Source: a virus. Taken from it: a stretch of 21,025 nt of DNA. The stretch spans positions 1 to 21,025 of the IMG/VR virus record IMGVR_UViG_3300004463_000115; one strand, given 5' to 3'. The notes below the pieces were generated by a model. That model made no database searches. It saw only the letters and a list, made by a program, of their open reading frames with translations, and had not been told where the DNA came from. Below, one piece after another: positions 4,013 to 8,607 of this stretch. Positions within the stretch are counted from its first letter, which is position 1, and the number at the start of each line of letters is the position of its first letter. The translations under genes and the position numbers were made by a program.

Positions 4013-5365
4013 TTATTTCCTGTTCCAGTGGTTGGCCGTTTGGACTGGCGACGAATCGATTTCTTTTTTGAAGGCCATGATCGGCCATTCATAGGCAATA
4101 CAATATCCGATTGCTGTTGTGATGTGCTGATACTGGTTCTTCTGGTCTTCTTGGAACGTAGAACCTTGCTGCAGTTGAACCGTGGCCAGACCCTTGTCGC
4201 ACCATTTGGCTGTGACTGGATTTACAAACAGGCTTCGATGACCGTCGGCCGTCGCGATCTTTGCCCGAACCGAGTTCTGCCTGTCCTTGATAGCTGGATG
4301 CGATGCCCTAACCCTGCGCTGGAATGTCCAGCCATTGGTGCGCAGCACTCCTTCGATATCAGTGTAGTCAGATGCGTGGCCGTGCTTCTCACCAGCCTGT
4401 CCAGCCGGATCGCCATAGATCAAGACGTTCTTATTCTGGTGATCTTTGAACTTCTCCACGAACTCCAGCGCAGCCTGCTTCGACACAGCGCTAGTAAGCA
4501 CGATCTCATCCAGAAGGTAGAGATCATTCCCTTCGTTGCGCCTGACGCCAATAGCGGAAGATAGAGGTGTGTAGTTCTGGTCATGCATCCATAGCAATTG
4601 CTCGTGAGGCTGGATTGTCTCGGACGTGTGGTTCTCTTTGCTGTAGTCCTCATAGATCCGGCCAGTGGCGCCTACAAAGTCTGCTTCATACTCCTGCTTG
4701 TATTGCTTTGCGCTCATCTGCCGCTTGGCAGCAGCGATTGTTGATGCGGGCAGGATCTCGGAAGACTTCCAGTGAAAGCACTCCCATTCCGGATCGCCAG
4801 CATTCTCTGCGTACTGGGCCATCTCGTAATAATGGTTCAGGCCATCGGGAACGCCAATCAACCAGCACCAGGCTTTATAATCAGGACGAGTGGGGTTGAA
4901 CGTATCGAGAGCTGGCCGGATGTTCGCTTCCCACGCCTCACCCTTGATGTCTGCAATCTCGTCTATCACTCCACCGGACCAGAAGACGCCCTCAATGCGC
5001 TCAGGGCGGTCCAATCCGATCAGCTGAATCTGCGTGCCGTTGTCCATGAAGATGATCAGGTCTGACTCTGAAGGCGGCTTTGCGCATAGGCTCGTCATGC
5101 AGAGCTTCTTCATGTCGTTCCAGTAGATCTTCTTCACTTGGTCGCGAGTAGGGGCGCCAATGAAGTACATCTCTGCCGGGTTCTTCATGGCCATCTTGGC
5201 AACGAATCGTTTAGCGCGCTCAGTCTTTCCAGATCGCCGGCCTGCCGGCACAACAGGGAAGCGCACGCCATTGGCCACAGCCGAGACCAGCCTAGTCTGC
5301 ACTGGGTGATCGATCAGCTTGTACCAGCGGTCAAGTTCACGCTGGGTCTGCAATGACAGGGCCAT
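4013..5365 (-). CDS. terL: Terminase large subunit (packaging ATPase/nuclease)
   Basis: This 450-aa protein is the motor that cuts concatemeric DNA and drives it into the procapsid through the portal. The ATPase half shows a Walker A at residues 40-48 (PAGRRSGKT) and a Walker B at about 131-136 (GGVIDE). The C-terminal half is RNase H-like, with candidate metal-binding acids at D262 (MHDQNY) and D319 (IYGDP); a third acid further on (D333 or D336) is less sure. The start ATG (5363-5365) overlaps the terS stop as TAATG, and its own stop lies one base before the portal start, so TerS-TerL-portal are made together. P22-type phages package by headful, so that mode is likely here but not shown by the sequence. 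Confidence 0.92.
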   Translation of the reverse strand: MALSLQTQRELDRWYKLIDHPVQTRLVSAVANGVRFPVVPAGRRSGKTERAKRFVAKMAMKNPAEMYFIGAPTRDQVKKIYWNDMKKLCMTSLCAKPPSESDLIIFMDNGTQIQLIGLDRPERIEGVFWSGGVIDEIADIKGEAWEANIRPALDTFNPTRPDYKAWCWLIGVPDGLNHYYEMAQYAENAGDPEWECFHWKSSEILPASTIAAAKRQMSAKQYKQEYEADFVGATGRIYEDYSKENHTSETIQPHEQLLWMHDQNYTPLSSAIGVRRNEGNDLYLLDEIVLTSAVSKQAALEFVEKFKDHQNKNVLIYGDPAGQAGEKHGHASDYTDIEGVLRTNGWTFQRRVRASHPAIKDRQNSVRAKIATADGHRSLFVNPVTAKWCDKGLATVQLQQGSTFQEDQKNQYQHITTAIGYCIAYEWPIMAFKKEIDSSPVQTANHWNRK

Positions 5366-5973
5366 TAGTCAGGAAGCCTCTCCGCAATATCGCGCAGCAG
5401 GTCGTCGCTCAGCTTCTTGTCGCCAATCTCGGCATCCAGGCTGTATGCCTGACGCTCAAGAGTGATAAGCGTCTTCAGCGTCTCGGACAGTTCCTTCATG
5501 GTCTTCGTGCGTGAAGGTAGATCAATCACCCTCATGTAAAGATCGTTTCGCTTATCTTGACCGTTGTCATCTTCCGAACGAAGAAGATCGCCAAGCTGGT
5601 CGAAAAGGTCGCGGTTATCCGTTAGGCCTTCTAGCTCATCAAGAAGTTTATTGGTGAGTCGCCGGCTACGGGAGATGTCCCCGCGGTGAGCCATTCTGAC
5701 ATTCACAATAACCTGAGCGCTTGCTTCTACTTCGACTCTTTCTGAAATCTTCTGCTCGGTGCGCACTTCTTTGCGCACCTCTTCTTTGCGCACCAAATCT
5801 TCTGCGCGCTGCTTGATCTTTGCGGAAAGGTCTCGGACCCATGAATCTCTCTTTGCCCGCTTACGGATCGCGCTCTCTGCAACCCCGTGCTTCGTCCCCA
5901 TCTCACGCAGAGTCAGGACGCCGGCCCGGTAATCGATTTCTACGCGGTCCCAATCGATTGATGTCTTGGTCAT
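5365..5973 (-). CDS. terS: Terminase small subunit
   Basis: This 202-aa protein is predicted to recognise the packaging site and regulate TerL. Residues about 18-45 form a helix-turn-helix (LREMGTKHGVAESAIRKRAK), as expected for DNA-binding small terminases, followed by a long charged helical region (about 48-85) and a C-terminal part rich in Leu and acidic residues that would mediate oligomerisation. It is longer than P22 gp3 (162 aa). The start overlaps the upstream stop as TGATG and lacks a strong Shine-Dalgarno sequence, suggesting coupled translation. In P22 the pac site lies inside the small terminase gene; whether that holds here cannot be seen. Position directly before terL is the strongest support. 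Confidence 0.85.
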   Translation of the reverse strand: MTKTSIDWDRVEIDYRAGVLTLREMGTKHGVAESAIRKRAKRDSWVRDLSAKIKQRAEDLVRKEEVRKEVRTEQKISERVEVEASAQVIVNVRMAHRGDISRSRRLTNKLLDELEGLTDNRDLFDQLGDLLRSEDDNGQDKRNDLYMRVIDLPSRTKTMKELSETLKTLITLERQAYSLDAEIGDKKLSDDLLRDIAERLPD

Positions 5974-6894: not shown

Positions 6895-6918
6895 CGAAAA
6901 AGCCCGTGATCAACGGGC
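6895..6918 (-). terminator. Intrinsic terminator after the 98-aa gene
   Basis: On the minus strand GCCCGT (6918-6913) pairs with ACGGGC (6907-6902) around a 5-base loop, followed directly by TTTTT (6901-6897). The 6-bp GC-rich stem plus T-run is a standard rho-independent terminator. It lies 16 bases past the 98-aa gene stop, separating it from the structural genes, so these need either read-through or a separate start. Confidence 0.85.
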
Positions 6919-7573: not shown

Positions 7574-7580
7574 AGAAATG

Positions 7581-7608
7581 AAAAAGGCCAGCTTAGTGGG
7601 CTGGCCTT
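7581..7608 (-). terminator. Intrinsic terminator after the 39-aa gene
   Basis: On the minus strand GGCCAGC (7606-7600) pairs with GCTGGCC (7592-7586) around a 7-base loop, and TTTTT (7585-7581) follows at once. This strong 7-bp GC-rich hairpin ends transcription coming from the leader and 39-aa gene unless it is read through. Confidence 0.88.
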
Positions 7609-7635
7609 CGATCTCACAGGGAACGCATGGTGTGT

Positions 7636-7755
7636 TCAGTATTGTAGGCGTTTCTTGCCGGACCACGCACCCCCCGCAAGACAGAGAAGGCAGGCAATGA
7701 ATGGCTGGCCCCATGCTGCGGCGAAACAGGCGAATACGAAAAGTGCTGTGGTCAT
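7636..7755 (-). CDS. Small Cys-containing membrane peptide (39 aa)
   Basis: A 39-codon gene starts at ATG 7753-7755, 7 bases after an AACTGGAGA ribosome-binding box (7762-7770), and ends at TGA 7636-7638, 28 bases before the terminator. The sequence is hydrophobic from residue 3 to 28 (ALFVFACFAAAW, then PFIACLLCLAGG) with three Cys, then a basic tail KKRLQY, consistent with one or two short membrane segments and the tail in the cytoplasm. It is the only gene between the structured leader and the first terminator. Function unknown. Confidence 0.6.
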   Translation of the reverse strand: MTTALFVFACFAAAWGQPFIACLLCLAGGAWSGKKRLQY

Positions 7756-7890
7756 AGCGATTCTCCAGTTGAATGTTAGGTCCGCACGTGCGGTCTAGGC
7801 GAGCAAGGAATCCATTTCGGTTCGCGTCTTGCTGCATCTTCCTTGGCGTTGGTTGATCTTCCGGCTGAAAATCCCGGTTCCAAACGTCCG

Positions 7891-7934
7891 CTTACGGCGG
7901 CGAGTCAAAGAGCATGGCCCCTTACGAGGGCGAG
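7891..7934. repeat. 14-bp direct repeat, 30-bp period, each in a hairpin
   Basis: CTTACGGCGGCGAG (7891-7904) and CTTACGAGGGCGAG (7921-7934) match at 12 of 14 positions and start exactly 30 bases apart. In each, the TTACG forms the loop of a small stem whose flanks differ yet stay complementary (CCGC/GCGG versus GCCC/GGGC), so pairing is kept while bases change. Confidence 0.55.
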
Positions 7935-7998
7935 GCGGCAGGCCTGGAGAGCTGAGCACTAGGGGAACTCAGCCGCCGGGACCAGCGGCGTTACCTGC

Positions 7999-8034
7999 GT
8001 GATAGATGCTACTGGTCTGGTGTTGCGCTTGCAA
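7999..8034 (-). promoter_or_regulatory. Candidate late promoter at the head of the structured leader
   Basis: Minus strand TTGCAA (8029-8034) and TAGCAT (8006-8011) are 17 bases apart; each matches consensus at four of six. Transcription would begin near 7999, immediately before the first leader hairpin and 10 bases past the ninG stop codon. Its place equals that of the lambdoid late promoter PR'. Confidence 0.4.
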
Positions 8035-8043
8035 GTAGTGCTT

Positions 8044-8607
8044 TCAGTTAGATCTTCTTCGCTCGATTATTCTGCATCGCCTTGTGAAGATAGCCTTCAG
8101 TCGCCTCAGATATTCGATGGAATAACTGGCCGGCTGATTCTGCGTATAGAGCCAATCGACCTTGGCATCACCTATCTTCTGGCGAACCCTCGGCAGGTAT
8201 TCAGAAAGATTTGCGCTTAGGTGCACGTTACAAACACTGCAAGCCTTATGAATATTCCATAGGTTGAACCTGATCGCGGATGCCGAACCTACGGACCTCA
8301 GGTGAGACGCGTGCCATTGACCTTGCCATGTCGACAGCTTATCGCAGCTCACGCAGCCCAAGTGCGCATCACGCAGCCGAACATACTTGTTAACCGCCTG
8401 CTCAGCCTCCTTCAGCCACTTGGCTTTAGGCTTCACCTTCTCCTTCGCAATCCGATGCTCTGCGCGCTCCTTTGCCTCCTTAGCCTTTCGCGCCCTCTCC
8501 TTCCCTGCATTGGTCAGCGCTATGGCGCATGGAACGCCACAGGCTGACTGGAGTGGCCGAGATGGGATGAACTCGGCTCGGCAGGACTTGCACTTCTTTG
8601 ACTTCAT
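8044..8607 (-). CDS. ninG: NinG-like (Rap) recombination endonuclease
   Basis: This 187-aa protein resembles lambda NinG (Rap), a structure-specific endonuclease acting on branched DNA in phage recombination. The N terminus carries a four-Cys cluster (C6, C9, C23, C27), a Lys/Glu/Arg-rich helix follows (35-65), then the conserved KWLKEAEQAVNKYVRLRD. The presumed catalytic zinc region has C85-x2-C88, WHASH (H99, H102), RFNLWNIHKACSVCN (N118, H120, C123, C126), matching the NinG pattern. Length is near lambda NinG (about 200 aa). The ATG overlaps the upstream TGA by four bases and has AAGGAG two bases before it. It is the last gene of the early leftward run, as in lambda's nin region before late control. 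Confidence 0.88.
   Translation of the reverse strand: MKSKKCKSCRAEFIPSRPLQSACGVPCAIALTNAGKERARKAKEAKERAEHRIAKEKVKPKAKWLKEAEQAVNKYVRLRDAHLGCVSCDKLSTWQGQWHASHLRSVGSASAIRFNLWNIHKACSVCNVHLSANLSEYLPRVRQKIGDAKVDWLYTQNQPASYSIEYLRRLKAIFTRRCRIIERRRSN

Follow-up and report, generated by a model that had tools for sequence, protein, structure and literature searches.

Which factor allows RNA polymerase to pass from the late promoter into the structural genes of a lambda-like phage if no Q gene is in place? Lambdoid phages use the Q protein together with a qut site at the late control position. The textbook example of a phage RNA which alone makes RNA polymerase ignore terminators is put of phage HK022, which serves the early genes and suppresses termination in cis via the zinc-binding domain of the beta' subunit. 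A sequence-only reading of the window (the whole stretch of 21,025 nucleotides analysed here) had proposed that the non-coding leader behind ninG may be an RNA-based antiterminator, and we have followed up this proposal by comparing the leader with those of related phages.

Results

Late control region of the window

The NinG gene, encoded on the minus strand, is followed by a non-coding gap of about 288 nt, which extends from the end of NinG at 8044 to the start of the next small ORF at 7755, as had already been read from the sequence, then by small ORFs and finally by the terminase genes (4013..5973), the earliest recognised late genes of the window (Table 1). The stretch from 8034 to 7938 contains a sigma70-like promoter and, behind it, a three-way-junction RNA. 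The promoter agrees with the consensus in 8 of 12 positions and was therefore overlooked by a 9/12 scan; the transcription start predicted from it falls where the closing helix of the RNA begins. Both strong terminators that had been claimed to precede the structural genes are present, at 7609-7583 and 6918-6902, each with a T run behind it. The folding energy of the whole 287-nt leader is not better than that of dinucleotide shuffles (z +1.15), so that folding of the entire leader is uninformative and the evidence for structure consists of the covariation in its first ~65 nt. A blastn search of the leader against phage records returned 0 matches, the relatives being recovered through patterns and models; no Rfam family exceeded the gathering threshold on the window, and a relaxed Rfam threshold yielded only chance-level matches on the leader.

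Table 1. Features of the late control region of the window, listed in the direction of transcription, and of RNA genes in related leaders
Feature	Position	Strand	Remarks
NinG/Rap endonuclease gene	8044..8607	-	phrog_171, E 3e-74; last early gene ahead of leader
Sigma70-like, pR'-like late promoter	8006..8034	-	TTGCAA (8034-8029), 17-nt spacer, TAGCAT (8011-8006); best-scoring site there
Conserved three-way-junction RNA	7938..7998	-	starts at ~+1 to +4 of predicted transcript; models R1/R2, covariation, isolated-core fold
Closing helix, 5' arm GCAGG	7994..7998	-	pairs with 7938-7942
Hairpin 1, CGCCG-CTGGTCC-CGGCG	7974..7990	-	conserved YTGGTC loop, variable stem; compensatory changes, permutation
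Hairpin 2, GCTGAG ... CTCAGC	7951..7973	-	5/7 pairs changed on both sides
Closing helix, 3' arm CCTGC	7938..7942	-	inside conserved CTCCAGGCCTGC; pairs with 7994-7998
Two GC-rich hairpins with 17-nt repeat at 30-nt spacing	7888..7934	-	variable module; otherwise only in L137
Remnant AACCAACGCCAAG of second conserved leader motif	7842..7854	-	full form CAACCAACGCCAAGTGCCCGCANATGCGG
Intrinsic terminator 1 (tR'-like)	7579..7609	-	
Intrinsic terminator 2	6898..6918	-	
Terminase small subunit gene	5365-5973	-	phrog_1206 and phrog_2 cover the terminase pair
Terminase large subunit gene	4013-5365	-	phrog_1206 and phrog_2 cover the terminase pair
tRNA genes between element and terminator	L038:3072-3147, L122:5742-5816, L154:6088-6163		also L184, L206, L217, L232, L241
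abiF RNA (RF03085) in late leader	L137:4554-4587	+	just ahead of terminator
abiF RNA (RF03085) in late leader	L206:202-235	-	just ahead of terminator
abiF RNA (RF03085), L205 record	G013:C1:7284-7320	-	below gathering score

Relatives of the element

About 20 relatives were collected, all from Pseudomonas-type phages and including the Pseudomonas phages PfAn1 and HU1. Two of the loci that encode a related terminase, L038 and L039, share short stretches identical to the leader, and the pattern GCAGGTN{30,55}CTCCAGGCCTGC derived from this sharing, when run on viral contigs, retrieved L119, L122, L123 and L137 and subsequently, by blastn, PfAn1. The downstream string AACCAACGCCA...AGTGCCCG, a search which set no condition on promoter or element, led to L171, L175, L179, L182, L184, L191, L194 and L196, and phage HU1 was recovered by blastn with the downstream leader string as query. 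A pattern combining promoter, GCAGG and TTGGTC added L205, L206, L215, L217 and L232, in which the promoter is present by construction of the search pattern. Scanning with the hairpin-2 loop plus the 3' motif gave 0 new members and 13 chance hits, none of which scored with model R2. The strict pattern produced 13 hits in 84,980 species genomes, 0 of them with promoter or structure, and R2 gave 0 hits in 369 gammaproteobacterial genomes (run without a positive control); as judged from these scans, prophages show no evident copy of the element. It is also absent from NinG relatives in general, no second copy was detected at the early PL/PR region of the window and PfAn1, and no description of the element was found in the literature.

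The upstream neighbour in nearly all scanned members is a NinG, RusA-like or RuvC-like Holliday-junction resolvase, separated from the element by zero to two small ORFs, and the terminases encoded downstream belong to unrelated families. The association with resolvases of three unrelated families and with unrelated terminases indicates that the element is maintained independently of its neighbours. Neither a CI repressor nor an integrase is annotated in PfAn1 or phage AH02, and these two phages therefore look virulent.

Structure and covariation of the first 65 nucleotides

In the commonest layout, the helix GCAGG...CCTGC encloses two hairpins, the first with the YTGGTC loop and the other with a loop that contains TTCACGGCT in most relatives, a sequence lost in the window. 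A different hairpin comes first and the TTGGTC hairpin second in L171, L179, L182 and L206; HU1, L191 and L196 exhibit only the hairpin-2 type, L184 is divergent, and AH02 contains a reduced form with the TTGGTC hairpin only, located behind a TATAAT sequence. Most of the isolated cores, including that of the window, fold alone into a three-way junction.

Covariation among homologous leaders, the check set by the earlier reader, was indeed found. When nine sequences were aligned by fitting to the model, 95.1% of the cells were paired versus 82.4% in shuffles and 10 of the 16 pairs were changed on both sides, values reached by 0 of 500 shuffles; controls with slid partners showed at most 51% pairing. 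Because this alignment was fitted to the structure and hence is biased in its favour, the arms were also permuted as a separate test. With hand-chosen arms, the 12 distinct stems of hairpin 1 form 44 of 48 pairs, compared to a permutation mean of 28 (0/200000), and the nine stems of hairpin 2 gave a permutation p of 1.5e-5. If the arms were chosen by rule and the permutations were granted equal freedom, the corresponding value for hairpin 1 in 17 members was 2/100000. Compensatory changes occur in all four modelled pairs of hairpin 1, and in the closing helix in one pair only (ACAGG/CCTGT in L194), its remaining pairs being invariant. The first ~65 nt of the leader are a conserved, covarying RNA. 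The earlier description of the leader as structured holds for this part, but not for the leader as a whole or for its later hairpins, which are not conserved.

The promoter is part of the same arrangement. Within the 60 nt preceding the element, the highest-scoring sigma70-type site keeps its -10 position in 20/21 members, which substantiates the candidate at 8006-8034 picked from the sequence alone, and a TTG -35 sequence is located at 17 or 18 nt from the -10 in all members but AH02 (TAGTTT). Accordingly written, TTG-N20/21-TANNNT stands 6-8 nt ahead of the element in the relatives, including those recovered via the unrelated downstream motif. The promoter spacers, compared by eye, differ between members except for close relatives.

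Terminators and variable downstream modules

A strong intrinsic terminator is present 118-1316 nt downstream of the element in 21/21 members and in 0/21 of the upstream regions (up to 1.5 kb); shuffles give about 0.02. The element forms the constant first part of the leaders and everything after it varies, which identifies the rest as cargo. In the window, the repeat at 30-bp period, formerly given as 14 bp, consists of copies of 17 nt (7888-7904 and 7918-7934) with 82% identity. It is shared with L137 alone, and the repeat and the downstream hairpins were rejected as parts of the conserved element.

The full form CAACCAACGCCAAGTGCCCGCANATGCGG of the second leader motif is present in L038, L122, L171, L175, L178, L183, L184, L191, L194, L241 and L242. 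It is very conserved, often followed by GTCTTTATC, and recurs in many phages with differing upstream sequence, including the 91-kb phage Touem01, in which the motif is followed by a long non-coding stretch (L242:3050-3560) with several tRNA fragments resembling T-arms; in PfAn1, the motif forms a terminator. Upstream of the motif in L176, L187, L189, L192 and L195, another structured element with apparently paired arms occurs as AGCCCCTCCACACCCATTGCTCCGAGCTGGGAGTGCTGCAGGGGCT or variants of it, in the same type of leader and ahead of tRNAs. Two further hairpin types recur in the leaders, namely GGCCC-ACGATAC-GGGCC in L171, L182, L184, L206, L215 and L168, and CTCGGAGCC...AAAAATTCCGAGG in L137, L194, L196 and L205; both are apparently exchangeable modules.

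Genes for tRNAs (Asn, Met, Gln, Thr, Ala) are inserted between element and terminator in several leaders, and abiF RNAs were found in those of L137 and L206 and in the L205 record (Table 1). No Abi_2 protein was found in these three records, and the leader abiF RNA is possibly a decoy against the host AbiF defence. Shortly after terminator 1, a -10-like sequence, TGGTATATAT, occurs at 7574-7565 (minus strand), with -10-like sequences at the same place in L196, L241, L122 and L232; in several members, the -35 position lies inside the terminator stem (TGGGCT-17-TATNNT). These sequences may be weak promoters, with scores mostly within the background.

Absence of known Q families

The view that the window lacks a Q gene agrees with the family searches, which recognise known families and would miss novel antiterminator proteins: PF06530 and PF03589 were found in 0/20 and phrog_79 in 0/21 of the element-bearing records. 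These counts rest on the three families named, PF06323 having been left out because its control was silent, and apply to records of which about half measure 36-43 kb, three are complete genomes, and many are fragments. Family scans of selected proteins named no N-like protein, although short N peptides would be missed by them.

Among 35 larger records that encode a related NinG or terminase, 3 carry a Q-like gene and none has the element at a convincing score. Element-less phages with 75-81% identical terminases encode Q between the resolvase and the late genes. L046, with a terminase 81% identical to that of the window, has the order NinG, Q, TTGATC-17-TATTGT and terminator, again without the element, and L055 shows resolvase, Q and endolysin without the element. 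The Q-bearing P. aeruginosa phage YA3 is likewise arranged as NinG, Q, PR' and tR' (PMC7326022). As judged from gene order, the slot holds either Q or RNA, with the element occupying the Q/pR' slot; the Q-bearing relatives being few, this alternation should be regarded as a pattern rather than a statistic.

Discussion

The best explanation of the locus is a late control region without Q, in which the element would act as a cis-acting antiterminator RNA; we assign this reading a probability of about 0.5. The wider proposal, that a new RNA family has replaced Q as late antiterminator in lambda-like, apparently virulent Pseudomonas phages and that the nascent RNA alone suffices, is more tentative and falls somewhat short of even odds. 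The idea of an RNA-based antiterminator is strengthened by the late slot, the covariation, the location at the 5' end, the terminators and the lack of a recognisable Q. The RNA is not of the put family, and the repeat and later hairpins are unconserved. In the proposed mechanism, a constitutive-type sigma70 promoter at the ninG end would start a transcript whose first ~65 nt are predicted to fold as a three-way junction. The nascent RNA would stay on the elongating polymerase, as put does, and the polymerase would thereby resist the intrinsic terminators before the structural genes, so that the RNA would perform the function of Q in cis, presumably without a phage protein. A terminator stands between the late genes and the one late promoter that is conserved, and hence must be passed. 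The distance between element and terminator varies too much for alternative pairing, which points to a lasting modification of the polymerase, as with put, and to processive antitermination rather than a local attenuator. Against this reading, it is not obvious how late timing would arise if promoter and antiterminator are both constitutive: in the absence of control at the promoter, the element would be active as soon as infection begins.

The closest functional parallel is put RNA (putL, putR), which is ~70 nt long, located directly behind PL in the case of putL, and active without a phage protein (PMC9378689). The element shares with it this approximate length, two adjacent stem-loops, the position directly behind a promoter, terminators downstream and the lack of a known dedicated phage protein. 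It differs in its closing helix, as no helix encloses both stem-loops of put (PMC9378689), and in its YTGGTC and TTCACGGCT loops. In addition, put serves early operons of a phage which has Q, whereas the element is placed at the late promoter of phages without Q. A search of HK022 (27.0-40.75 kb, filters off) with R2 gave no match (best 9.3 bits, E 0.5), and membership in the put family was rejected on this result and the different architecture. From these comparisons, we infer a different RNA family which would be put-like in function.

The locus resembles the Q/qut/pR'-tR' region of lambda in its slot after NinG, its sigma70-like promoter and a terminator followed by late genes, the terminator of the lambda Q system also being a few hundred nt downstream. 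Unlike that system, the element-bearing phages contain a structured RNA instead of a PF06530, PF03589 or phrog_79 gene, and the spacer between -35 and -10, where Q binds, is not conserved among them. RNA hairpins near the 5' end which act on downstream terminators are also known from lambda nut/boxB, the LoaP dual hairpin and Bacillus EAR; nut requires N, the LoaP RNA requires a NusG paralogue, and EAR is a Bacillus-type element. The element shares with these the 5'-proximal hairpins ahead of terminators, and it matches no Rfam family.

Members also carry tRNAs and abiF RNA in this leader, which may therefore be mainly an RNA-gene operon. According to this unlikely but best-surviving alternative, the leader would be a stand-alone operon of non-coding RNAs (tRNAs, abiF RNA, hairpins), with the element serving as a stability or processing cap or as a functional, e.g., anti-defence, RNA, and the late genes would use other promoters. 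The tRNA genes in many leaders, the abiF RNAs without an Abi_2 gene, the terminator directly behind these RNAs and the weak -10-like sequences after some terminators fit such an operon, as do the sRNAs which Stx phages make between PR' and tR' (PMC7873438). However, the element always comes first behind the promoter while the rest varies, the slot is that of Q, and the post-terminator promoters mostly score within background. The StxS leader RNAs likewise are short RNAs between late promoter and terminator (PMC7873438), but are by-products of Q control, while the element occurs in phages without Q. We know of no conserved three-way junction in StxS leaders.

Slightly less plausible still is a nut-like site, at which a phage protein, for example an N-like peptide that is small and arginine-rich or a novel factor of the Q type, would read the YTGGTC and TTCACGGCT loops and modify the polymerase together with the RNA. 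The loops are conserved and the stems vary, as is seen when proteins read hairpins; proteins of the N type are short and divergent, and several unknown early genes are available, with phrog_4029 next to the resolvase in the window, PfAn1 and L205; a protein factor would also supply the late timing. Speaking against it, no candidate regulator shared by the members was found and the recognised Q families are missing; AH02 retains only the TTGGTC hairpin, and HU1 and L196 only hairpin 2. A DNA-level site (a Q-binding element, a cos/pac packaging site or a recombination boundary with inverted repeats) would suit the location between modules and near terminase genes, but is very improbable given the unconserved promoter spacer, the unrelated terminases of the members, and stems varying with compensation around fixed loops, which points to RNA rather than a DNA-bound palindrome.

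If the antiterminator reading is true, an RNA unrelated to put can take over from a protein at the late switch, and a second independent RNA would be at hand for comparing the means by which nascent RNA keeps non-enteric polymerases from terminating. It raises the testable question of late timing without Q, and the element would represent a portable read-through element for Pseudomonas.
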